Assembly (NCBI GenBank): GCA_003511885.1
Contig: DOIX01000386.1
Location: 9,844 to 28,849, forward strand
DNA: 19,006 nucleotides
DNA from: Cyanobacteria bacterium UBA11153
GTDB taxonomy: Bacteria > Cyanobacteriota > Cyanobacteriia > Cyanobacteriales > Coleofasciculaceae
Direction: 5' to 3'
Made by a program: the position numbers and the translations under genes
Shown: positions 1,693 through 17,265 of the stretch, in pieces
Numbering within the stretch: the first letter of the stretch is position 1
Layout: every line of letters starts with the position of its first letter
The notes under the pieces: model-generated
Database searches by the model: none
The model's input: the letters and a program-made list of their open reading frames with translations, nothing else
What the model was told of the DNA's origin: nothing

Positions 1693-2511
1693 TCAGACTT
1701 TAAGGTTCTGTTGAAAACGGATCTCTGGCAATCGATACCAAGGAATGTTAGGATATTCATGGTGTTCCCAATGATAGCCAAAGTGATAGCAAGTCAAAAA
1801 AGACCAGAATATGGGATAATTAGTGCTGTGAGCGTGATGACTATTGCTAGAATCTTTCTCATTTCCCCCATGAGGCAAATAAGTTCCGAAATAAAATAGC
1901 TGGATGGAACTTAATAGCAACGGTAAAATCCAAAATACAATAAAGTTAACCAGAGAAATATCAAAGATTTGATTCAGGATATAGAAAATTAATCCCCAAC
2001 TACTCCCCAGGATGATAAATTGGGATAAAGGCAAATATTCCCCAATAAATTTTAGATACCAGCGGAGAGGATGACGATGAATACCATCGTGGAAATCCGG
2101 ATCCCTAATTTGCCCTGGATAATGATGATGCTGCCAATGATTTTCACGATATCTTTCATAAGGGAAAAAAGCATATAACCAAATAGCAAACTTCCCAATT
2201 AAGTCATTAGCTACCTTATGATTCGGGACTAAACTCCCGTGCATAGCATCATGAGCAATAATAAATAAGCCAGTATGAAGAAAAGTTCGTACCAATATGG
2301 CAAGCACCAACCAAAAAAGTGAAATATCAGCCAAAGGCAATGGCAGTAGGAATGACAGGCTACCAATCCCCAAAGCTGCGATGCCTGCGGCGGGCAAAGC
2401 CATCGTAATTGCCATCAATACCCCTCTTTGCCCCATCGGAATTATCAACCACCAATCGCCTGAATAATCTTCATTATTTAATTGTGAACTCTTGCTAATA
2501 GTGACTATCAA
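1693..2511 (-). CDS. crtW: Beta-carotene ketolase CrtW
   Basis: This membrane di-iron oxygenase of the fatty-acid-desaturase superfamily should oxidise C4 (and C4') of beta-carotene, giving echinenone or canthaxanthin. The 272-residue length is normal for CrtW. Visible features are an HDAMHG box at residues 87-92, HWQHHHYPG at 125-133, HHAH at 225-228 and HWEHHEYP at 247-254. These are the histidine boxes that bind the two irons, and FGTYLPHG (208-215) is typical of CrtW. Four hydrophobic stretches lie at about 32-50, 64-85, 163-182 and 188-208. The gene follows ocp in the same direction, 369 bp downstream, and OCP binds a ketocarotenoid, so the pair makes functional sense. CrtO ketolases are a different, FAD-binding family and are excluded by the histidine boxes. 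Co-transcription with ocp is uncertain because of the repeats between them. Confidence 0.93.
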   Translation of the reverse strand: MIVTISKSSQLNNEDYSGDWWLIIPMGQRGVLMAITMALPAAGIAALGIGSLSFLLPLPLADISLFWLVLAILVRTFLHTGLFIIAHDAMHGSLVPNHKVANDLIGKFAIWLYAFFPYERYRENHWQHHHYPGQIRDPDFHDGIHRHPLRWYLKFIGEYLPLSQFIILGSSWGLIFYILNQIFDISLVNFIVFWILPLLLSSIQLFYFGTYLPHGGNEKDSSNSHHAHSTNYPIFWSFLTCYHFGYHWEHHEYPNIPWYRLPEIRFQQNLKV

Positions 2512-2880: not shown

Positions 2881-3840
2881 CTAACGAACCAGATTTAATA
2901 ACTCTTTAGGAGATGCCAACAAATCAATAGCGACAAAGAAAATTTTATTCTCAGGATTGAGCAAAAACCTCCATGCCATATTCATTCCCACACCACCACC
3001 AAACCAAGGAGTTTGCACTTTACCAGTAACCTTGATTTGTGTATAACCATCTTCAGTAGGTTCAGCAACACCTCTTTCTGGCATTAATTTCAGGTTTTGG
3101 CAATCTTCCCGGAAAAACCGCAAAACGGCATCTTTGCCAACAATTGGTCTTTGGAAAGGAGGTTGTAGAGCGCCATCAGGAGTGAATAACTCAATTAGCG
3201 CATCGAAGTCATTGGCATTCATATTGTTCATGTAGTTGAGAACAGTTGAATTATCAATGCCTTCAATAGTTACTTTCGTCCGTTGTGAAGATTCTTTCGG
3301 AACAACAACAGGTTCGCTAACCCGTTTGTAACTACCCAACTTATTCGGATCGAATCCCATGTCAACCACAGCATTTCTTAAGACTGTAATTTGTTGACCT
3401 GACTCTAAATCTCCAATCGCTTTCAATACGGCTGCTGCATTAGCAGAAAGTCGATATCCTTCAGGAATTGGCGCAACAACTCCCTCTTCCATCCATTGTC
3501 CAAGCTTATACCAAAAACCTAGTTTAATGTTGGCAGACCAAGTGGCATAAGTGCGGCATATCGGGGTATCAGTACGATTTGCTAAATCGCACATTGCTTG
3601 AGATTGCTCTCGGAAAGACATTTGCCGAATCTGATTGAGAGTTCCCTCTGCAAGCACCATGCTCGCAGCCCCTGGTGCAGCAATAGTGATTGATTTACCC
3701 ATTTCCAGGTAAGCAAACCAAATCAAGGCAAGTTGATCTTCAGCACTAAGCTGGCTAAACCTGGCAATTGTTGCAGGTACTGCATCAGCGGCTAGAGTGT
3801 TGGGAAAAATACTACGAGCTGTGTCAATCGTAAACGGCAT
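2881..3840 (-). CDS. ocp: Orange carotenoid protein (OCP1-like)
   Basis: OCP is a soluble blue-light photoreceptor that binds a ketocarotenoid and, once activated, docks on phycobilisomes and dissipates excess energy as heat. The 319 residues match the usual length. The N-terminal carotenoid-binding domain covers about 1-165 and the NTF2-like C-terminal domain about 192-315, joined by a linker near 166-191. From my recollection of Synechocystis OCP, Tyr44, Trp110 and Arg155 are at the same positions, and Tyr203 and Trp290 correspond to Tyr201 and Trp288, the residues that hold the carotenoid carbonyl. The partner of Arg155 (Glu244 in Synechocystis) appears here as Asp246, in REDCQNL. No fluorescence recovery protein gene is present in the window. 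The gene is divergent from the 4122 gene, with a 281-bp spacer, and crtW lies downstream. Confidence 0.96.
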   Translation of the reverse strand: MPFTIDTARSIFPNTLAADAVPATIARFSQLSAEDQLALIWFAYLEMGKSITIAAPGAASMVLAEGTLNQIRQMSFREQSQAMCDLANRTDTPICRTYATWSANIKLGFWYKLGQWMEEGVVAPIPEGYRLSANAAAVLKAIGDLESGQQITVLRNAVVDMGFDPNKLGSYKRVSEPVVVPKESSQRTKVTIEGIDNSTVLNYMNNMNANDFDALIELFTPDGALQPPFQRPIVGKDAVLRFFREDCQNLKLMPERGVAEPTEDGYTQIKVTGKVQTPWFGGGVGMNMAWRFLLNPENKIFFVAIDLLASPKELLNLVR

Positions 3841-9149: not shown

Positions 9150-9971
9150 ATGACACTCACCCAAGAATTAGCCCCTCTCCAAGAAATATCAGCACCAGAG
9201 ATACCAGAAAATGTTATCTTTCCTTCAGGCGATTTATATAGCGATGAACCTCCCGTGGAAACTGAACTACATCTGAGACAAATCATCATCCTCCTCAACT
9301 GCTTAGAATGGTTGTGGCGAGAGCGAAATGACTTCTATGCCGCAGGAAACCTGACTATCTATTACAGTCCCCGTCAAAAAAAATCACAAGACTTTAGGGG
9401 ACCAGACTTTTTTGTAGTATTAGACACGGAAAAAAAAACTCGGAAAAGTTGGGTAGTCTGGGAAGAAGATGGAAAATATCCCAATGTCATTATAGAAATA
9501 CTCTCGCCAAATACGGCTGATGTGGATAAAGGATTTAAGAAAAAGTTATACCAAAATACATTTAGAACACCGGATTACTTTTGGTTTGACCCTTATAGTT
9601 TAGAATTGGCTGGATTTCATTTAGTAGATGGAAAATATCAATCAATTCCAGAGAATGAGTCAGGATACTTATGGAGTGAGCAGTTAGGTTTGTATCTGGG
9701 AATATATAACAAACAACTGCGATTTTTTACCTCCTCTGGAGAACTAGTTCCGACACCAGAAGAAGTAGCAGAATCAGAACGTCAGGAGAAAGAATTGGCT
9801 CTACAACAATTAGCCTTAGAACGTCAGGAGAAAGAATCAGCAATTCAGGAAAAAGAAGTAGCAATTCACGAGAAAGAATCAGCAATTCACGAGAAAGAAT
9901 TAGCGATAACACAAGCAGAGAGATTAGCAGCCAAACTCCGGGAATTGAATATCAATCCAGATACAATTTAG
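9150..9971 (+). CDS. Uma2 family (DUF820) nuclease-fold protein, copy 1, with C-terminal coiled coil
   Basis: Uma2 proteins have a PD-(D/E)XK nuclease fold and are greatly expanded in cyanobacteria; their cellular role is unknown. In this 273-residue protein the putative active-site residues are Asp86 (RGPDFF), Glu116 (VIIEILSP) and Lys/Asp around 126-132 (DVDKGFKKKLY). The core spans about 35-195. Residues about 205-260 are a run of heptads of the form xAIQEKE and RQEKE, encoded by a 21-base repeated unit, probably a coiled coil. The protein ends in AAKLRELNINPDTI, a tail shared with the two other Uma2 proteins and with the STAND protein of this island. It precedes the divergent spacer and the HTH-iSTAND gene. 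A possible promoter lies close upstream. Catalytic competence is not proven. Confidence 0.9.
   Translation: MTLTQELAPLQEISAPEIPENVIFPSGDLYSDEPPVETELHLRQIIILLNCLEWLWRERNDFYAAGNLTIYYSPRQKKSQDFRGPDFFVVLDTEKKTRKSWVVWEEDGKYPNVIIEILSPNTADVDKGFKKKLYQNTFRTPDYFWFDPYSLELAGFHLVDGKYQSIPENESGYLWSEQLGLYLGIYNKQLRFFTSSGELVPTPEEVAESERQEKELALQQLALERQEKESAIQEKEVAIHEKESAIHEKELAITQAERLAAKLRELNINPDTI
9780..9920 (+). repeat. 21-bp coding minisatellite (heptad repeats) in Uma2 copy 1
   Basis: Codons 211-257 are built from degenerate units such as gcaattcaggaaaaagaagta and close variants (cacgag or cgtcag replacing caggag). Each unit encodes one heptad. Two nearly identical adjacent units (gcaattcacgagaaagaa) occur near 9864-9902. 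Confidence 0.7.
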
Positions 9972-9985
9972 CTGTTTAGTGTGGC

Positions 9986-10013
9986 TGGTGCGCTAGTTTC
10001 GCATAGCGCACCA
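9986..10013. repeat. Perfect 10-bp hairpin after Uma2 copy 1
   Basis: TGGTGCGCTA (9986-9995) pairs with TAGCGCACCA (10004-10013) around an 8-base loop. It lies between the stop of Uma2 copy 1 and the stop of the small minus-strand gene. No T-run follows on either strand, so it may be a dispersed GGTGCGYTA-type repeat rather than a true terminator, although it could still reduce readthrough. Confidence 0.55.
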
Positions 10014-10056
10014 CAGATAGATTCTTTACCTAACTGCCGTTAAAGCTAACTATAGC

Positions 10057-10203
10057 TTACTTTTCTATAGTATTATCCTCCTTCAAGACTTGATAGAGAA
10101 ATCCTAATATAAATATGGTAGCCAGAAATGGTGCATACTGGGGAAATGAGATAAAAATTACGATGATTTCCAGGATTGTCTTGATGGCTTCGATGTTTTC
10201 CAT
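10057..10203 (-). CDS. Small 48-residue membrane peptide
   Basis: The start at 10203 is chosen because AGAGGA sits about nine bases upstream on the minus strand. The longer frame beginning at 10314 has no ribosome binding site and its extra residues look random. The 48-residue product has two hydrophobic runs (TILEIIVIFISF, about 9-20, and FLATIFILGFLYQVL, about 26-40), split by PQYAP, and a charged tail KEDNTIEK. It is likely a small inner-membrane peptide. I do not recognise a family. It is divergent from the HTH-iSTAND gene and shares its regulatory region, so it may belong to the same system, but that is inference. Confidence 0.5.
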   Translation of the reverse strand: MENIEAIKTILEIIVIFISFPQYAPFLATIFILGFLYQVLKEDNTIEK

Positions 10204-10248
10204 GAGTGGTTTCCTCTTGATTGGGATAATTTCATCTTGAAATATGGC

Positions 10249-10305
10249 TGTCGGAGTAGGTGTCAAAGCTGTGTAGGAGTTATTTCCGACAAAAGTCCGA
10301 CAAAA
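10249..10305. promoter_or_regulatory. TCCGACA motif array in the divergent promoter region (candidate operator)
   Basis: TCCGACAAAA occurs twice in direct orientation at 10285-10294 and 10296-10305, exactly 11 bp apart (one helical turn). TGTCGGA, the inverted form, occurs at 10249-10255. All lie between the start of the small membrane gene and the start of the HTH protein gene. The HTH protein is an obvious candidate binder, but this is inference. Confidence 0.4.
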
Positions 10306-10342
10306 AACTGACATGAGGAGAATGACTGTAAAATAATTAGCT

Positions 10343-10855
10343 ATGCCGAGATCATCCCTTAAGGTAGCCCCACCCTATATTGACAAAGTTAAAAATGCTC
10401 TAATGCGGAATGGTTTTCCACGCCAACAGGATTTAGCTGAAGCTGTGGAAATATCCAGAGATACCGTCAGTAAGTTTCTTAATGGTAAGCCGATTAATTA
10501 TCTGAATTTTGTCGTACTTTGTGATAAGTTGAATTTCAACTGGAAAGAAATTGCTGATTTTCAGGATAGTGAATCTCTAGATATAGCCACTAGGGAAGAT
10601 CCAAATGGAGTAAATCCTTTAATAGGGATAGGTGATTTTGTACCAGATGATACTCTAACGGATGATAAACTGTCTGCTATAAATGAAAAATATATTGCAA
10701 AATGCTTTGTTCGTGATTCATTACTGTTTGATTTATTACTGCAAATGGACTTTAAGCCACAGGTGGGATTAGTGAGGGAAGTTATCCAAATTCATCGCAC
10801 GGCGGCTTTCTTAGTTCATGGCGAAATTAAATTGACTGTGGACATGATTTATTAA
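10343..10855 (+). CDS. N-terminal half of a split HTH-iSTAND-like protein (frameshifted)
   Basis: This is the first conflict-island gene. Residues 1-75 form an HTH domain of the kind found at the N-terminus of cyanobacterial STAND and AAA-like proteins (MPRSSLKV, then QQDLAEAVEISRDTVSKFLNGKPINYLNFVVLCDKLN, with KEIADFQ after it). Residues about 100-150 are a second region leading to FLVHGE (156-161). After that the last nine residues (IKLTVDMIY) are out of register. A 5-bp tandem duplication, AAATT twice at 10824-10833, explains this: removing one copy lets the reading continue without a stop into the next frame to 11481, giving one 377-residue protein. The stop (TAA, 10853-10855) overlaps by one base with the ATG of the following frame. 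The start has no strong ribosome binding site. Whether this half is functional alone is unknown. Confidence 0.75.
   Translation: MPRSSLKVAPPYIDKVKNALMRNGFPRQQDLAEAVEISRDTVSKFLNGKPINYLNFVVLCDKLNFNWKEIADFQDSESLDIATREDPNGVNPLIGIGDFVPDDTLTDDKLSAINEKYIAKCFVRDSLLFDLLLQMDFKPQVGLVREVIQIHRTAAFLVHGEIKLTVDMIY
10824..10833 (+). other. 5-bp tandem duplication (AAATT x2) causing a frameshift
   Basis: The sequence is ggcg AAATT AAATT gactgtgg. With one copy deleted the reading is HGEIDCGHDLLMTRLFRL, continuous through both frames. HGE followed within a few residues by CG and LxxRL is the degenerate P-loop region I associate with inactive STAND domains. The duplication is the only change needed to restore a single gene. 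Confidence 0.75.
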
Positions 10856-11481
10856 TGACTCGTTTATTCCGCCTCAAATCAGGGTGGAGAAATAATAGTC
10901 AAATTAAAAATGATGTGACTAATAATGGGGCTTATCGGAGTATCGAAAGGTTGTGGAGACAACTAGCGCGTTCCTTGTTACTCCCAGCGGATACGGAACC
11001 AGAAAAGATTATGGCGGGGATTTGCGATCGCTGGCAAACTCAAGATGTTATTATTATCTTTGATAAAGTGGATTTTATGCCGCCAAATATTCTGGCTACT
11101 TGGTTGGATGTATTTTGGAAACCGCTGGTGAAAAGGGCTAGGCAAAAGCTACCGGAGAAGGATACTAACTTGTTACTTTTTTTATTGGATAATGATGGTA
11201 AAGTTGGTCAGTCTAACCTGATGGTAGCAGAGCAATTTAGGCAAATAAACGATCCGATAATGCCGCTAAAATTACCTGGTGTTAGTCCATTTTCCTTGGA
11301 AGTAATTACTGATTGGATGGATATGGTGACAGCGATGGAGTCGGTGCCGATTCCTGATGGATTAACTGCGCAAAGTTTGTTTGATAATTCCGAGAATGGT
11401 ATACCGCAATATCTTTATGAGGAAATTTGCGATCGCTTCGGTTATAGTTGGGAAGGAGGTTTGGCAAAATGGCTGATTTAG
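10855..11481 (+). CDS. C-terminal iSTAND-like half of the split HTH protein
   Basis: This 208-residue frame is the downstream part of the interrupted gene. It contains a Walker-B-like strand DVIIIFDKVDFM (about 64-75), a following strand NLLLFLLDNDGK (about 104-115), and an LKLPGVSPFSLEVITDWMD segment (about 138-156), the pattern I associate with the inactive STAND (iSTAND) domain that accompanies vWA-MoxR systems. The assignment is from memory. No Walker A is present: the region that would hold it is the frameshift point. The ATG at 10855 could be reached by re-initiation after the overlapping stop (TAATG), so the two halves may still be made as separate polypeptides. The end overlaps the MoxR gene by 13 bases, supporting one operon. 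Confidence 0.72.
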   Translation: MTRLFRLKSGWRNNSQIKNDVTNNGAYRSIERLWRQLARSLLLPADTEPEKIMAGICDRWQTQDVIIIFDKVDFMPPNILATWLDVFWKPLVKRARQKLPEKDTNLLLFLLDNDGKVGQSNLMVAEQFRQINDPIMPLKLPGVSPFSLEVITDWMDMVTAMESVPIPDGLTAQSLFDNSENGIPQYLYEEICDRFGYSWEGGLAKWLI

Positions 11482-12374
11482 CTGCGATACTGCCTGCTAA
11501 GGGTAAGCCCTGTTACAGGGGTAATTTGATTTCAGTTGAGGCGTGTCAGGAGTATGGCATTTCTCCTTATTTACCAGCGCCGGAATTGATTAATGCGGTC
11601 AATTTGGCTATATTTTTAGAACGTCCTCTTTTATTAAAGGGGGAACCTGGTTGTGGGAAAACTCGGTTGGCGGAAGCGGTATCTCGCGAATTGGGATTGC
11701 CCTACGAACCCTGGTATATTAAGTCTACAACTAGGGCAAAGGATGGACTATATAGTTATGATGCTGTCAGGCGGTTACACGATGCTCAATTGGTGCGAAT
11801 TGGAGAAGAAAATAAAGCGAAAGTCGATAATTTAGAATTATATATAAAAATGGGAGTCTTGGGACGTGCTTTTGCCAATTCACAGCAGACGGTAGTACTG
11901 ATTGATGAAATTGATAAGGCAGATATTGACTTTCCTAACGATTTATTACGGGAACTAGATGAGCAGAAATTTATCATTGAGGAAACTGGAAAAGAAGTCA
12001 AGGCAAATTTACCGCCGATTGTCTTTGTAACTAGCAATGATGAGAAGGATTTACCCGATGCGTTTCTGCGGCGTTGTCTGTTTTATTATATCGAGTTTCC
12101 TTATTCACAATTAACTGATATTGTGAAAGTACATTTTCCGGAATCACCGCCAGAATTAGTAGAGGTAGCGGTGCAGCGTTTTCGGGAATTGCGAGGGAAA
12201 ATGGAGAAGGGAAAATCGGGGAAAAAGGTGAGTACTAGTGAGTTATTGGATTGGTTTGCGGTGTTGCGGGAGTTTCCGAAAGATGAGGTATTAGGGAAGT
12301 TGGAGGGAGAGTTACCTTTTGCGGAGATTTTGTTGAAAAAATGGGAGGATTATTTGCGGTATCTAAAAACCTAA
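11469..12374 (+). CDS. MoxR family AAA+ ATPase
   Basis: MoxR ATPases are AAA+ chaperones that usually work with a vWA-domain partner, and one follows here. The start at 11469 is supported by a full AAGGAGGT at 11453-11460, eight bases upstream; a TTG at 11448 has no such site. The product has 301 residues. Visible motifs are Walker A GEPGCGKT (58-65), Walker B VVLIDEID (142-149), sensor 1 VFVTSNDEKDLPDAF (186-199) and an arginine-finger-like LRRC (200-203). The C-terminal lid covers about 215-300. It overlaps the end of the iSTAND-like gene by 13 bases. The next gene is 216 bp away because a tandem repeat separates them. Confidence 0.92.
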   Translation: MADLAAILPAKGKPCYRGNLISVEACQEYGISPYLPAPELINAVNLAIFLERPLLLKGEPGCGKTRLAEAVSRELGLPYEPWYIKSTTRAKDGLYSYDAVRRLHDAQLVRIGEENKAKVDNLELYIKMGVLGRAFANSQQTVVLIDEIDKADIDFPNDLLRELDEQKFIIEETGKEVKANLPPIVFVTSNDEKDLPDAFLRRCLFYYIEFPYSQLTDIVKVHFPESPPELVEVAVQRFRELRGKMEKGKSGKKVSTSELLDWFAVLREFPKDEVLGKLEGELPFAEILLKKWEDYLRYLKT

Positions 12375-12395
12375 CCCCCCAGCCCCCTTCCCTGC

Positions 12396-12588
12396 AAGGG
12401 AAGGGGGAGTATGAAAGAAAGTTTTTTTCTTGAAATTAGCCCCTCTCCTCTTAGGGGAGGGGTTGGGGAGGGGTTTCATGGGATATTTGAAAAGGGAAGG
12501 GGGAGTATGAAAGAAAGTTTTTTTTCTTGAAATTAGCTCCTCTCCTAAGAGGAGAGGGGTTGGGGAGGGGTTTCATGGGATATTTGAA
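12396..12588 (+). repeat. Direct tandem repeat, ~97 bp x 2, between the MoxR and vWA genes
   Basis: Copy 1 is 12396-12491 (96 bp) and copy 2 is 12492-12588 (97 bp). Both begin AAGGGAAGGGGGAGTATG, contain a T7 or T8 tract, and end TTTCATGGGATATTTGAA. Each has a GC-rich foldback (cctctcct ... aggagagg, perfect in copy 2 around an AAG loop, one mismatch in copy 1) next to the gggttggggagggg sequence typical of cyanobacterial spacers. Copies differ by one T and a few substitutions in the hairpin. The vWA start codon lies two bases after copy 2. Confidence 0.85.
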
Positions 12589-12590
12589 AT

Positions 12591-13682
12591 ATGAAACTTG
12601 AAGAATTACCACTAATCGATATTTTCAATAATTTGCGTCAACGACATGGGTTACCGTTGGGGGTGGATGATTATCTGGTAGTATTGCGATCGCTACAATC
12701 TGGTTTTGGTATTGGTACTCGTGAGGAATTGGTACAGCTTTGCTGTTTAGTGTGGGCTAAGTCTGAGGCTGAGAGTCGTTTAGTGCGACGGTTATTTGAG
12801 CAAATGTGGCGATATTCTCTTCCTGAGTTGGAGAATAGAGAAAATATTTCTGTAGATGCTACTTCATCCACCTCAGTCAAGCCAAAAATTACTAAAAATG
12901 AAACCCTAGAATCGTTCCCAAATTTACCCACACAACCCAGTATAACCCCCGAACCCGTGCAAGCGGTGCAAGCTGTGCGGAGTAGTCGGCGACATCGGGA
13001 ATTGAAACCACCTCGCTATAGTTTTCTAGGCGAATATTTCCCCGTTACTCGCAGACAAATGAAGCAAAATTGGCGTTATTTGCGTCGTTTAATCCGAGAA
13101 GGATTACCGATAGAATTAGATGTAGAAGCGACGGTAGTAAAAATGGGGCGAGAGGGTATTTTACTGGAACCAGTATTAGTACCGCGTCGTTGTAATAGAA
13201 CCAAATTGGTGTTACTAATAGATCGAGAAGGTTCAATGGTTCCCTTTCATGATTTATCCAAACAATTAGTAGATACGGCACAGCGCGGTGGCAATTTTCG
13301 GCAAACTCACGTCTTTTATTTTCACGATTATGTTGATGAATATCTCTACCACCATCCAGCCTTAATGAATGCTCAACCCATATCTGAAGTTTTAGGAGAA
13401 ATGGCAGAAGATACAGTGGTATTAATTGTCAGTGATGGGGGTGCAGCGCGGAGAAGTTTTGATGAAGAAAGGGTGAAAAGTACTAAAATATGGGTGGAAA
13501 AGTTGCGAGATTCAGTGCGCTATTTAGCTTGGCTGAATCCCATGCCAAATCAGAGTTGGGAAAATACAACAGCGGTGGAAATTGCTAGTTTTGTTCCGAT
13601 GTTTGAGATGAGTCGTCAGGAGATGAATAGGGCGATTAGGATTTTGCGGGGTGGTGATGATGATTCTAGGGTTAGAATATAA
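12591..13682 (+). CDS. vWA domain-containing protein of a MoxR-vWA system
   Basis: This 363-residue protein has three parts: an N-terminal helical domain (about 1-85, with LPLIDIFNNLRQRHGLPLGVDDYLVVLRSLQ); a low-complexity linker (about 86-140); and a segment EYFPVTRRQMKQNWRYLRR (148-166) leading into a vWA domain (about 203-353). The metal-binding (MIDAS) loop reads LIDREGSM (209-216), with Asp211 and Ser215, but Glu where classic DxSxS motifs have Ser. A second Asp is in VSDGGA (280-285). Conserved AWLNPMP (313-319) and FVPMFEMSRQ (334-343) mark it as the cyanobacterial system type rather than a generic vWA protein. It should be the adaptor of the MoxR ATPase. The start at 12591 lacks a good ribosome binding site, probably because the repeat was inserted just upstream. 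It is two bases from the STAND gene. Confidence 0.9.
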   Translation: MKLEELPLIDIFNNLRQRHGLPLGVDDYLVVLRSLQSGFGIGTREELVQLCCLVWAKSEAESRLVRRLFEQMWRYSLPELENRENISVDATSSTSVKPKITKNETLESFPNLPTQPSITPEPVQAVQAVRSSRRHRELKPPRYSFLGEYFPVTRRQMKQNWRYLRRLIREGLPIELDVEATVVKMGREGILLEPVLVPRRCNRTKLVLLIDREGSMVPFHDLSKQLVDTAQRGGNFRQTHVFYFHDYVDEYLYHHPALMNAQPISEVLGEMAEDTVVLIVSDGGAARRSFDEERVKSTKIWVEKLRDSVRYLAWLNPMPNQSWENTTAVEIASFVPMFEMSRQEMNRAIRILRGGDDDSRVRI

Positions 13683-13684
13683 GA

Positions 13685-15502
13685 ATGGCTACCAGAAATA
13701 AAGATAGGGAAATGCAAGTTGCTATCAAACGGGTGGAAGGATTTGCCAAAGAATTTGGCGAGGCACATCGCCACCTAGCCCGTCTCGCTGCATTTCCACT
13801 AGTACTCACTCCCGATTTACTCTATCAAATTTGGGCAAACTTTGTCCCAGAAGCGCCTTGGAGTGCTGTAGCGATGGTATTGCTGTCCCGATTATGCCGG
13901 GAAGTAGGATATGAAATATATCAGATGGATAATTGCGATCGCAATTTGTTATTACGGGAATTAAAGCAAGAATTTGGGCAAAAAATATTAGATGAATTGG
14001 GTGAGTTTTTACTGGATTATGTGGCGCAGCAATTAATTGGAGATGATCCGGATACGGAGGATTTGCAAGAAGCACAAGAGTGGACAGCATTAGCTTATAC
14101 AAAGCCAAATCAAGCAGCGCAGGAGTTAGCTTTGGCGCTGAAGGAGAAGGTGAAAAATGAGGATATGGGAGAGGTTTTGCGGCTGGCTTCTTTGGTGGAG
14201 ACTTTGGCGGAACCTTTGGTTGATGCGGGGTTTGAGCCTTTATTAGTTTATATTCGAGGGATGATAAATTATGTTCGTGGTAATAGAGAGATGGCAGCTA
14301 ATCAATTTAGAAAGTTGCATGTAAAGGGTAGCCAAGTTAAAATTGCTGGAGTAACGTTGGATATCCCATTAAATAATGTACAACGTCGAGATTTCCAGGT
14401 TGCAGGAGTTTTACCTCCCGATGCTCCTAGTTATGTAACAAGGCAAGGAGACATCGATATTTATGAGGGATTGAAAGCAGGAGAATTTTGCTACATATTC
14501 AACTCGCGGCAGATGGGAAAATCTAGCTTAATAGTGCGAACTGGGCCAAAGCTGAGATCAGACGGTTTTGCTTGTATTCTTATTGATATGTCAAACTTGG
14601 GCACTCAAATGACTCAAGATCAGTGGTATGCAACTCTGATAGATAAAATTGCCAAGAGTTGTGCTATAAATTTTAATTTGAGTACTTGGTGGAAGGCTCA
14701 CAGCCTCCTGTCTCCAATTCTTCGATTGGGTAAGTTTATCGAAGAAGTATTACTAGTCCAGATTAAACAACCTATTGTTATTTTTATTGATGAAGTAGAT
14801 AGTATATTATTCCTAAAATTTTCCACTGATGATTTCTTTGCGTTTATTCGTTACTGCTACAATCAACGTGCTAATAACCCAGAATATCGAAGGCTTACAT
14901 TTTGCCTAGTAGGAGTAGTCACTCCCTCTCAGCTAATTCAAGATAAAAAGAGAACGCCATTTAACATTGGTCGGGCGATTGAACTTAACGGTTTTAAATT
15001 GGATGAAGTTGCACCATTAGCACAGGGATTAGCGGGGAAGGTAGATAATCCTCAAACTGTCCTCAGAGAGATTCTTGACTGGACAGGTAGACAACCTTTT
15101 CTCACTCAAAAGATTTGTTCATTGATTGCAAAGTCTAAATTTCCTATTCATGCAGGGAGTGAAGCAGAGAGGGTAGAAGAGATAGTGCGATCGCACATTA
15201 TCAATAACTGGGAATCGCAAGATAGCCCTGAACATTTGCAGACGATAAGAGATAGGATTTTCTGGATTCAGCAGAGTTCTGTTAAATTGCTAAGGCTATA
15301 TCAGCAGATTTTACAAGAAGGAGAGATCCGAGGGGATAATAGTCGCGAGCAAATCGAATTACTGCTATCTGGTTTAGTTGTTCAACAGGATGGTAGTTTA
15401 AGAGTTTATAATCGTATTTACGAAGCTGTCTTTAATCAAGCTTGGATTGAGAAAGAAGCAGCAAAATTGCGGGAATTAAATATTGATCCAGATACAATTT
15501 AG
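13685..15502 (+). CDS. Two-part protein: vWA-MoxR-associated helical domain fused to a STAND-like AAA NTPase
   Basis: This 605-residue third component follows the vWA gene by two bases. Residues 1-228 are a helical, partly TPR-like domain (FAKEFGEAHRHLARLAAFPL; later AEPLVDAGFEPLLVYIRGM) that I recall only from MoxR-vWA operons of cyanobacteria. Residues about 240-585 are an AAA-like (AAA_35 type) NTPase: VLPPDAPSYVTRQGD (242-256), a Walker A variant NSRQMGKSSL (273-282), Walker B PIVIFIDEVDSI (363-374), then a winged-helix-like region ending in VYNRIYEAVFNQAW (574-587). The protein stops soon after, in AAKLRELNIDPDTI, a tail shared with the Uma2 proteins, rather than continuing into the WD40 or other C-terminal modules I would expect. 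A nucleotide-driven switch acting with MoxR and vWA is the likely role. The helical domain could instead be a binding platform. Confidence 0.88.
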   Translation: MATRNKDREMQVAIKRVEGFAKEFGEAHRHLARLAAFPLVLTPDLLYQIWANFVPEAPWSAVAMVLLSRLCREVGYEIYQMDNCDRNLLLRELKQEFGQKILDELGEFLLDYVAQQLIGDDPDTEDLQEAQEWTALAYTKPNQAAQELALALKEKVKNEDMGEVLRLASLVETLAEPLVDAGFEPLLVYIRGMINYVRGNREMAANQFRKLHVKGSQVKIAGVTLDIPLNNVQRRDFQVAGVLPPDAPSYVTRQGDIDIYEGLKAGEFCYIFNSRQMGKSSLIVRTGPKLRSDGFACILIDMSNLGTQMTQDQWYATLIDKIAKSCAINFNLSTWWKAHSLLSPILRLGKFIEEVLLVQIKQPIVIFIDEVDSILFLKFSTDDFFAFIRYCYNQRANNPEYRRLTFCLVGVVTPSQLIQDKKRTPFNIGRAIELNGFKLDEVAPLAQGLAGKVDNPQTVLREILDWTGRQPFLTQKICSLIAKSKFPIHAGSEAERVEEIVRSHIINNWESQDSPEHLQTIRDRIFWIQQSSVKLLRLYQQILQEGEIRGDNSREQIELLLSGLVVQQDGSLRVYNRIYEAVFNQAWIEKEAAKLRELNIDPDTI

Positions 15503-15577
15503 CTCCGGCTTTGCCCAATCCAGACATCCCAGAGCGGAACTACTCTAAAATAAAAACAACCCTCCAACCTAGCAGCC

Positions 15578-16420
15578 ATGATACTCACCCAAGAATTAGC
15601 CCCTCTCCAAGAAATAGCAGCACCAGAGATACCAGAAAATGTTATCTTTCCTTCAGGCGATTTATATAGCGATGAACCTCCTGTGGAAACTGAACTACAT
15701 CTAGAACAAATACTACTATTCCTCAAATGTCTCAAATGGTTGTGGCGAGAGCGAAATGACTTCTACGCCGCCGGAAACCTGACTATCTACTATAGTCCCC
15801 GCCAACGGAAATCAGAAGACTTTAGAGGACCAGACTTTTTTGTAGTATTAGACACGGAAAAGAAAACTCGCAAAAGTTGGGTAGTCTGGGAAGAAGATGG
15901 GAAATATCCAAATGTCATTGTGGAAATACTCTCGCCCAAAACTGCTGATGTGGATAAAGGATTTAAGAAAAAACTCTATCAGAATACATTTAGAACACCA
16001 GATTACTTTTGGTTCGATCCCTATACGCTAGAATTTGCCGGATTTTGTCTGGTGAGAGGCAATTACCAAGCAATAGAACCCAACGAAAGAAAACATTTAT
16101 GGAGTCAGGAGCTAGGTTTGTATCTGGGAATATACAACAAACAACTACGATTTTTTAGCCCTGATGGACAATTAGTTCCGACACCAGAAGAAGTAGCGGA
16201 ATTAGAACGTCAGGAGAAAGAATTGGCTCTACAACAATTAGAATCCGAACGTCAGGAGAAAGAATTAGAACGTCAGGAGAAAGAAGTAGCAATTCAAGAG
16301 AAAGAATTAGCAATTCAGGAGAAAGAGGTAGCAATTCAGGAGAAAGAATTAGCGATAACACAAGCAGAGAGATTAGCAGCTAAACTCCGGGAATTAAATA
16401 TAGATCCAGGTAGCATTTAG
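15578..16420 (+). CDS. Uma2 family (DUF820) nuclease-fold protein, copy 2
   Basis: This 280-residue paralogue aligns with copy 1 without gaps over its first 200 or so residues, and the DNA is also closely similar. The active-site-like residues are conserved: Asp86, Glu116 (VIVEILSP) and the Lys cluster at 127-132. The coiled coil after residue 205 is one heptad longer than in copy 1, which accounts exactly for the 7-residue length difference. The tail is AAKLRELNIDPGSI. It lies 75 bp after the STAND gene, with its own conserved leader, so it could be transcribed separately or as the end of the operon. Role unknown; a nuclease effector is possible. Confidence 0.9.
   Translation: MILTQELAPLQEIAAPEIPENVIFPSGDLYSDEPPVETELHLEQILLFLKCLKWLWRERNDFYAAGNLTIYYSPRQRKSEDFRGPDFFVVLDTEKKTRKSWVVWEEDGKYPNVIVEILSPKTADVDKGFKKKLYQNTFRTPDYFWFDPYTLEFAGFCLVRGNYQAIEPNERKHLWSQELGLYLGIYNKQLRFFSPDGQLVPTPEEVAELERQEKELALQQLESERQEKELERQEKEVAIQEKELAIQEKEVAIQEKELAITQAERLAAKLRELNIDPGSI
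16208..16351 (+). repeat. 21-bp coding minisatellite (heptad repeats) in Uma2 copy 2
   Basis: Codons 211-258 consist of RQEKE and xAIQEKE units. Three consecutive near-identical 21-base units (gcaattcaggagaaagaatta type) occur at about 16290-16350, a longer pure run than in copy 1. Confidence 0.7.
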
Positions 16421-16506
16421 CACTATTGTTCTCCCGAAAACTTTTCTCTGAGCGCAACTCCCCAACGCTAAAATAGAAACAATCCCCTAAATCTCACCTA
16501 CCCGCC

Positions 16507-17265
16507 ATGACACTAATCCAAGAATTAGCCTCCCCTCAAGAGATATTAGAACCAGAGATACCAGAAAATGTTATCTTTCCTCCAGGCGATTTATATAGTG
16601 ATGAACCTCCCTTGGAAAGTGAACTCCATCTCAGACAAATAATTCTCTTCCTCAGCTCCTTACAATGGCTATGGCGAGATAGAAATGACTTCTATGCCAT
16701 GGCAAACCTCACTATCTACTACAGTCCCCGCCAACTGCAATCCCAAGACTTTAGAGGACCAGACTTTTTTGTGGTATTGGATACGGAAAGGAAAACTCGC
16801 AAAAGTTGGGCAGTCTGGGAAGAAGATGGAAAATATCCTAATGTTATTGTGGAACTTCTGTCACCAGAAACAGCTTCAACAGATAAAAACGATAAGAAAA
16901 AAATTTATCAGAATACATTTAGAACCCCTGATTACTTTTGGTTTGACCCCTATACACTAGAATTTGCTGGATTTCATTTAGTAGATGGTAAATATCAAGT
17001 AATTGACAAGAATGAACAAGGATATTTGTGGAGTCAGCAGTTGAGTTTATATCTGGGAATATATAATAAACAACTGCGATTTTTTACCCCTGATGGAGAA
17101 CTAGTTCCGACACCGGAAGAGGTAGCAGAATCAGCACTCCAGAAGAAGGAATTAAAACGTCAGGAGAAGGAATTAGAACGTCAGGAGAAAGAATTAGCTA
17201 TAGCAAAAGTAGAAAGATTAGCAGCCAAACTGCGGGAATTAAATATCGATCCAGATACAATTTAA
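16507..17265 (+). CDS. Uma2 family (DUF820) nuclease-fold protein, copy 3
   Basis: This 252-residue third paralogue is the most diverged but aligns without gaps over the first ~205 residues. Asp86 and Glu116 (VIVELLSP) are kept. The following lysine region reads STDKNDKKKIY, differing from the DVDKGFKKKLY of copies 1 and 2. The coiled coil is three heptads shorter than copy 1 and four shorter than copy 2, which accounts for the whole length difference. The tail AAKLRELNIDPDTI is identical in residues to the end of the STAND protein. It is 86 bp after copy 2, with a related leader. Its stop is only 13 bp from the stop of the convergent transporter gene, leaving almost no room for a terminator. 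Confidence 0.9.
   Translation: MTLIQELASPQEILEPEIPENVIFPPGDLYSDEPPLESELHLRQIILFLSSLQWLWRDRNDFYAMANLTIYYSPRQLQSQDFRGPDFFVVLDTERKTRKSWAVWEEDGKYPNVIVELLSPETASTDKNDKKKIYQNTFRTPDYFWFDPYTLEFAGFHLVDGKYQVIDKNEQGYLWSQQLSLYLGIYNKQLRFFTPDGELVPTPEEVAESALQKKELKRQEKELERQEKELAIAKVERLAAKLRELNIDPDTI

Follow-up and report, generated by a model that had tools for sequence, protein, structure and literature searches.

What does a MoxR-vWA ternary conflict system control, and through which output would it act? The question is raised by an operon in a stretch of 19,006 nucleotides (G000:C17:9844-28849, hereafter the window) from a cyanobacterial draft genome, that of Cyanobacteria bacterium UBA11153, which comprises 6,645,592 bases in 437 contigs. 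The operon encodes a helix-turn-helix (HTH) domain joined to an iSTAND domain, a MoxR ATPase, a CoxE-like vWA protein, and a helical domain fused to an AAA_35 nucleoside triphosphatase (NTPase). Its assignment to the iSTAND-type MoxR-vWA ternary conflict systems is strongly supported, and its novelty looks to lie in the control region, where a small membrane peptide gene and repeats with an 11-base-pair (bp) period precede the HTH-iSTAND gene. To our knowledge, ternary conflict systems are predicted and mostly without experimental test, and a one-turn-spaced operator beside a small peptide gene would give a direct handle on how the iSTAND protein acts. The genes of the operon are the following.

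10343..10855, + strand: HTH and first part of the iSTAND domain; PF13443, 24.2 bits (cut-off 22); frame broken at the end
10855..11481, + strand: remaining iSTAND domain, in a different frame; PF19995, 54.3 bits (cut-off 24)
11448..12374, + strand: MoxR-type AAA+ ATPase, 308 residues; PF07728, 57.7 bits
12591..13682, + strand: CoxE-like vWA protein; PF05762 (VWA_CoxE), 46.4 bits
13685..14389, + strand: N-terminal helical domain (vWA-L); predicted model with a predicted local distance difference test (pLDDT) of 94.6 and a predicted template modelling score (pTM) of 0.88
14390..15502, + strand: AAA_35 STAND-like NTPase fused to vWA-L, a variable effector or sensor module; PF14516, 122.4-125 bits

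As described in the text of Kaur et al. 2020 (PMC7159879), iSTAND ternary systems are composed of an iSTAND protein, MoxR, a CoxE-type vWA protein and variable effectors, and the text of the 2021 paper (PMC8195603) names the helical linker vWA-L and mentions a separate vWA-L-effector gene "in a minority of iSTAND systems". The window resembles the systems set out in these texts, which have iSTAND, MoxR and CoxE-like vWA in one operon, with variable effectors behind a helical linker, and which are concentrated in cyanobacteria among others; it differs from them by the HTH on its iSTAND protein, the divergent membrane peptide and the 11-bp repeats. With regard to the iSTAND N-terminus, the published text, figures and supplements aside, lists TIR, DRHyd, peptidases, effector-associated domains (EADs) and a Death-like domain, and HTH is not in that list.

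Conservation of the core was assessed with a profile of the vWA-L domain (A1), which matches 79 of the 243 genomes of the order and was derived for the most part from vWA-L genes that stand alone, so that fused ones may be under-counted. Sixty stretches, drawn from the listed places (mostly higher-scoring ones, not all of them), gave, together with the window and a second locus of the same genome (contig C368), 63 vWA-L genes, 52 of which have at least 6 kb of upstream sequence. When a partner was counted if fused or on the same strand within 6 kb, vWA was found for 50 of the 52 (6 fused), MoxR for 49, iSTAND for 45 and all three for 45; the 11 genes with less upstream sequence have all three in 3 cases. 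Since none of the three occurs in 40 control stretches (796,039 bases), this grouping exceeds chance. The MoxR AAA+ gene of the window adjoins the vWA gene, as in iSTAND systems, and its product matches that of the intact operon at locus L058 of Iningainema tapete with 520 bits in phmmer. The vWA protein scores 61.9 bits against NCBIfam SAV_2336_NTERM, far under the cut-off of 200, and its metal-site motif reads DREGS in place of DxSxS; the motif is canonical in 11 of 73 vWA proteins and altered in most relatives.

A sequence-only reading had placed the locus among the MoxR-vWA ternary conflict-type systems predicted by Aravind and co-workers, here in a cyanobacterium, and the parts, their order and their conservation support this. 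In the list of open reading frames (ORFs) and the Pfam scan, all eight items of the proposed order are present, namely, from 5' to 3', Uma2, a divergent hydrophobic ORF, HTH plus iSTAND, MoxR, CoxE-like vWA, helical domain-AAA_35, Uma2 and Uma2. The same reading had taken a direct fusion to a STAND-like NTPase as the third component; this place belongs instead to the upstream HTH-iSTAND protein, and the NTPase fusion sits on the vWA-linker/effector protein. Such a fusion is not in itself new, since the texts of PMC8195603 and PMC7159879 already describe both separate vWA-L-effector genes and, for the VMAP class, vWA-linked effectors that are STAND NTPases. The MoxR and vWA pair is common to iSTAND and VMAP ternary systems; in the iSTAND class, MoxR lacks the N- and C-terminal extensions known from VMAP systems, and the CoxE-type vWA bears a 4-helical N-domain. 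No VMAP-named match was found among the families listed for nine proteins of the window.

The third component appears to be an inactive STAND NTPase. Across 13 HTH-iSTAND proteins, the P-loop region reads G-x4-G and then QQ in at least 90%, with Q at the lysine position in at least 90%, and the NTPase site is, to judge by these motifs, eroded. The two domains that had been read as one "HTH plus iSTAND-like protein" are indeed present, although not as a single protein, being carried by two ORFs in different frames. In the first ORF, PF19995 begins at residue 132 with 14.9 bits, below the cut-off of 24. P0182 (365 residues), a close relative, has both halves in a single open frame; the first ORF aligns with its residues 4-157 and the second with residues 158-365. 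The second system of the genome, at C368, has an intact iSTAND frame and, by eye, an FGE-like C-terminus; its HTH is more distant (25.9 bits), and the divergent hydrophobic ORF there, of 84 residues, is a different one.

The helical domain and AAA_35 form one protein of 605 residues. The former has no Pfam match; it fits the published vWA-L linker, an identification made from the text description, position and partners rather than from a published alignment. It was considered as a new, unnamed domain, which was dropped given its description in the text of PMC8195603. It lies directly behind the vWA gene, and is fused to vWA in 7 of 79 distinct proteins. A resemblance of the vWA-L fold to MalT was computed with VIA-align, which also suggested a detached STAND module of winged helix, arm and TPR-like helices; profiles did not confirm the latter. 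The C-terminal parts behind vWA-L are variable, as are the effector domains behind vWA or vWA-L in iSTAND systems: Pfam scans of 75 of them gave FGE-sulfatase in 30, HEAT_2 in 8, CHAT in 5 and Csm6-like domains in 3, with TPR among others, and matched 154 families in all, repeats of the same kind being counted many times. For the AAA_35 domain of the window, Foldseek returned ORC2, Sso1545, NRC2, NRC4 and Avs4 at E values of 3.1e-4 or lower, thus spanning ORC/Cdc6, plant NLR and Avs4, and its P-loop is present (residues NSRQMGKSSL). By predicted fold, the domain is STAND/ORC-like. AAA_35 may work in pairs, since at C418, C345 and C267 of the same genome no more than about 320 bases separate a high-scoring gene from a low-scoring match that lies behind it in a far longer ORF, and two AAA_35 matches stand behind one vWA-L at L058. 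A protein of 610 residues, P0033, matches the vWA-L domain, PF19961 and iSTAND, and is possibly a direct fusion of two components.

Upstream of the HTH-iSTAND gene, the control region contains two features.

10060..10203, - strand: single-helix membrane peptide of about 48 residues (probable gene; ORF 10057-10314 includes extra 5' codons)
10249..10313, no strand: operator-like repeats, with inverted TGTCGG at 10249 and direct CCGACA at 10286, CCGACA at 10297 and CTGACA at 10308 (11-bp period)

The probable extent of the peptide gene was derived from comparison with relatives. The peptide of the window has a hydrophobic segment, and those divergent to HTH-iSTAND at L058 and L083 are 65% and 58% identical to it; such a peptide is divergent to the HTH-iSTAND gene in all four fetched loci where this HTH scores above 30 bits (window, L058, L083 and L195), which were found independently of the peptide. 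Of 243 genomes, 11 contain the peptide family (A8); two of these, that of the window and G133, contributed to the model itself, and the other nine match weakly (24-36 bits). Its 13 distinct places comprise 4 divergent to HTH-iSTAND genes, 7 beside the same HTH (L226, L228 and L230-L234), 1 beside a different HTH (L229) and 1 where no HTH was seen (L227). Among the seven, AAA_35 was confirmed by Pfam in the five scanned (not L230 and L234), and L228, L230 and L231 belong to one genus. None of 259 control genes has an A8 peptide upstream. We also considered a divergent membrane peptide beside all iSTAND genes, and discarded it: some hydrophobic ORF was found at 14 of 56, no better than the controls (70 of 259).

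The gap between the peptide and HTH-iSTAND genes measures 139 bases in the window, 142 in L058 and 140 in L083, and reaches period-11 self-match scores of 16, 17 and 15 out of 22, respectively, which none of 500 dinucleotide shuffles of each reached at period 11; the top period-11 score among 26 control divergent gaps was 14. The strict repeat triple occurs once in the 19-kb window. Out of 11 peptide gaps scored (L237 and L238 were omitted as near copies of L236), 7 reach at least 15, while L195, L235, L242 and L243 lie below. Of 21 HTH genes, 14 reach at least 15 within the 300 bases that precede them, in a table that includes the near-identical L228, L230 and L231 and loci fetched through the peptide. 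For a second sample, 40 HTH places were taken from a tally of this HTH subtype over 388 genomes, on the condition that the match began within the first three profile positions, and before their upstream DNA was seen; some genomes occur twice in it, and G390 and G545 carry near-identical genes. Here 13 of 40 reach at least 15, compared with 9 of 266 control stretches upstream of ORFs of at least 300 residues, some of them inside operons or before chance ORFs (Fisher p about 1e-7). Three YGASW cores ([CT]GA[CG][AT], defined after both sets had been seen) at period 11 are found in 7 of 20 and 6 of 39 genes versus 0 of 266 controls, the hits including the window and L058 and not L083; at periods 8-10, 12, 13, 15 and 16, such triples occur in 0 of 59 versus 2 of 266, and at period 14 in 1 of 59 versus 6 of 266. 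Scans of ten such HTH proteins gave six with AAA_35, one HTH-iSTAND, and three with AAA_16, AAA_22 or nSTAND1 below Pfam cut-offs. The 11-bp arrays precede part of the HTH-STAND genes in other cyanobacteria. On the strength of these sequences, the proposed operator of the window is well supported. The tally over 388 genomes scored at most five candidates in each; many of its rows are therefore HTH-only, and it is a lower bound. Cyanobacterial HTH-AAA_35 proteins share with the window the same HTH, often the same 11-bp repeats and, in some loci, the same divergent peptide, whereas those scanned have no iSTAND domain. In searches of open-access papers, figures and supplements aside, no report of the HTH-iSTAND, repeat and peptide set was found.

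MalT-type STAND transcription regulators join an HTH to a STAND NTPase and read several DNA boxes, with the HTH at the other end. The window is alike in its HTH-STAND layout, and differs by an apparently NTPase-dead iSTAND linked to MoxR and vWA.

From the parts, their order and conservation, the repeats and the peptide, all read from DNA, we lean slightly towards an iSTAND ternary system with a transcriptional arm, in which the HTH sits on the repeats and the divergent membrane peptide serves as output. The HTH of the iSTAND protein would most likely bind the repeats in the gap to the peptide gene and hold down that gene, and perhaps its own operon too. As the repeats are about one helical turn apart, several HTH domains could be aligned on one face of the DNA in an oligomer-like manner. 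The MoxR-vWA chaperone pair would then act as a switch on the iSTAND protein when vWA-L-AAA_35, or iSTAND itself, meets an invader; given the eroded NTPase site, it is MoxR-vWA that would need to bring about the change of state. Once the HTH had left the repeats, more membrane peptide would be made, and this might harm the membrane and so stop the infection, giving the system an antiviral role. The killing action of the peptide is the weakest step of this proposal. On a broader and more tentative level, the cyanobacterial HTH-STAND proteins, many of them behind exact 11-bp arrays, could form a family of oligomeric DNA-bound immune switches, one branch of which would have joined MoxR-vWA, such that a chaperone-remodelled dead NTPase fires a membrane-killing peptide with transcription as output; we hold this to be possible rather than probable. 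Should HTH-STAND proteins generally bind at such repeats, switches of this kind could be found and classed from DNA alone.

Several observations weigh against the transcriptional arm. The iSTAND gene of the window, as assembled, is broken by the frame change, and this copy may therefore be inactive. PADLOC matched neither the vWA nor the vWA-L-AAA_35 protein, and its matches for MoxR and the HTH are weak. With all periods between 8 and 30 admitted, the scores of the window, L058 and L083 are reached by 4, 1 and 24 of the 500 shuffles, respectively. At period 11, the window has a further high-scoring place, an unrelated repeat at 2824 that attains up to 18, more than the operator array, so that such a score does not single out the array. 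A period-11 array is missing from L195, one of the four HTH-iSTAND loci with the peptide, and 27 of the 40 HTH genes of the second sample are below the threshold. Eight of these peptides went into the A8 profile, so that their scores are given by construction, and the peptide is absent upstream of 51 further genes with this HTH (11 plus 40, the 40 with a few hundred bases examined). Furthermore, some hydrophobic divergent ORF, whatever its sequence, is a common neighbour, present at 70 of the 259 control genes, so that the peptide link holds only for the sequence family and the HTH subtype.

These points bear on a simpler alternative, in which a standard iSTAND system regulates itself: the HTH would control the operon through an autoregulatory 11-bp operator, the peptide would be unrelated or accessory, and vWA-L-AAA_35 would be the output. 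The 51 HTH genes without the peptide indicate that the repeats do not need it, the arrays also standing before HTH-STAND genes that lack it, and STAND NTPases are, as cited above, published effectors. The peptide is nevertheless found beside all four fetched HTH-iSTAND genes and seven more genes of the same HTH (three of them in one genus), and we regard self-regulation alone as possible, if rather unlikely.

It is likewise possible, if rather unlikely, that the locus is a decaying, non-functional remnant of an island. The block between the flanking genes spans 8.3 kb in the window as against about 260 bases, masked stretch included, between the corresponding matches in G236, where the flanking genes are adjacent and this junction lacks the block; G225, a congener, has the matches to the two flanks on different contigs, and no further window match was found in the G225 pieces examined. 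The whole block is probably an island. Decay would be consistent with this, with the iSTAND frame break, and with a tail on the AAA_35 gene.

15458..15502, + strand: 3' end of the AAA_35 gene, Uma2-like (tail KLRELNIDPDTI); agrees with three Uma2 3' ends at 38-41 of 45 bases

The next best place in the window for these last 45 bases matches at 25 of 45, and a tail of this sort is also found at the end of 8 ORFs with a Uma2 match in the other loci fetched. Of the 120 vWA-L proteins listed out of 381, P0001 is the one that carries it, and P0001 is the window's own protein as it stands in the database. We therefore read the tail as a probable recombination scar, by which the AAA_35 gene seems to have acquired the final codons of one Uma2 copy; for the same reason, its role as an adaptor between Uma2 and AAA_35 was dropped. 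Against decay, no frame is interrupted in MoxR, vWA, vWA-L or AAA_35, the last of which retains its P-loop, and the frame break could be an assembly error, the draft being in 437 contigs.

Three neighbouring genes flank the operon.

9150..9971, + strand: Uma2 protein A, 273 residues; PF05685, 81.1 bits (cut-off 27)
15578..16420, + strand: Uma2 protein B, 280 residues; PF05685, 79.7 bits (cut-off 27)
16507..17265, + strand: Uma2 protein C, 252 residues; PF05685, 81.3 bits (cut-off 27)

Relative to protein A, identity is 85% for B and 80% for C. The sequence-only reading had proposed Uma2 as the nuclease output, to be given up if its adjacency to related systems proved no more frequent than expected from its genomic abundance, and this is what the neighbourhood statistics returned. 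When both sets were searched with the same home-made profile of 24 seeds, the system stretches contained 11 Uma2 ORFs in 10 of 60 (1,026,316 bases), or 0.107 per 10 kb, and the control stretches 9 in 8 of 40, or 0.113 per 10 kb, a rate ratio of 0.95; the genome of the window alone has 99 Uma2 matches. Per-genome Uma2 counts over the order, scored for about 13 candidates at most, were kept out of the background. A Uma2 output is therefore very improbable, despite the three close copies around the operon, the Uma2 tail of the AAA_35 gene, borne among the listed vWA-L proteins by P0001 alone, and the match of all three proteins to the PADLOC candidate defence model PDC-S03 (34.6-39.1 bits). In view of this last match, Uma2 may have a defence role in its own right; beside the operon, the Uma2 genes look incidental.

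Some minor features were also noticed. A gene of 212 residues lies between vWA and vWA-L in L060, L061-L064, L067, L068, L070 and L073, and not in the window. The gap between the MoxR and vWA genes (12374-12590) shows, by eye, two similar G-rich intergenic repeats. Farther upstream, a gene at 1693-2511 (- strand), which we take by eye to be carotenoid ketolase-like, is close to one at 2881-3840 (- strand), presumably orange carotenoid protein-like, and the separate 11-bp tandem repeat at 2824-2867, of the GCTAACGCACC type, lies beside the latter.

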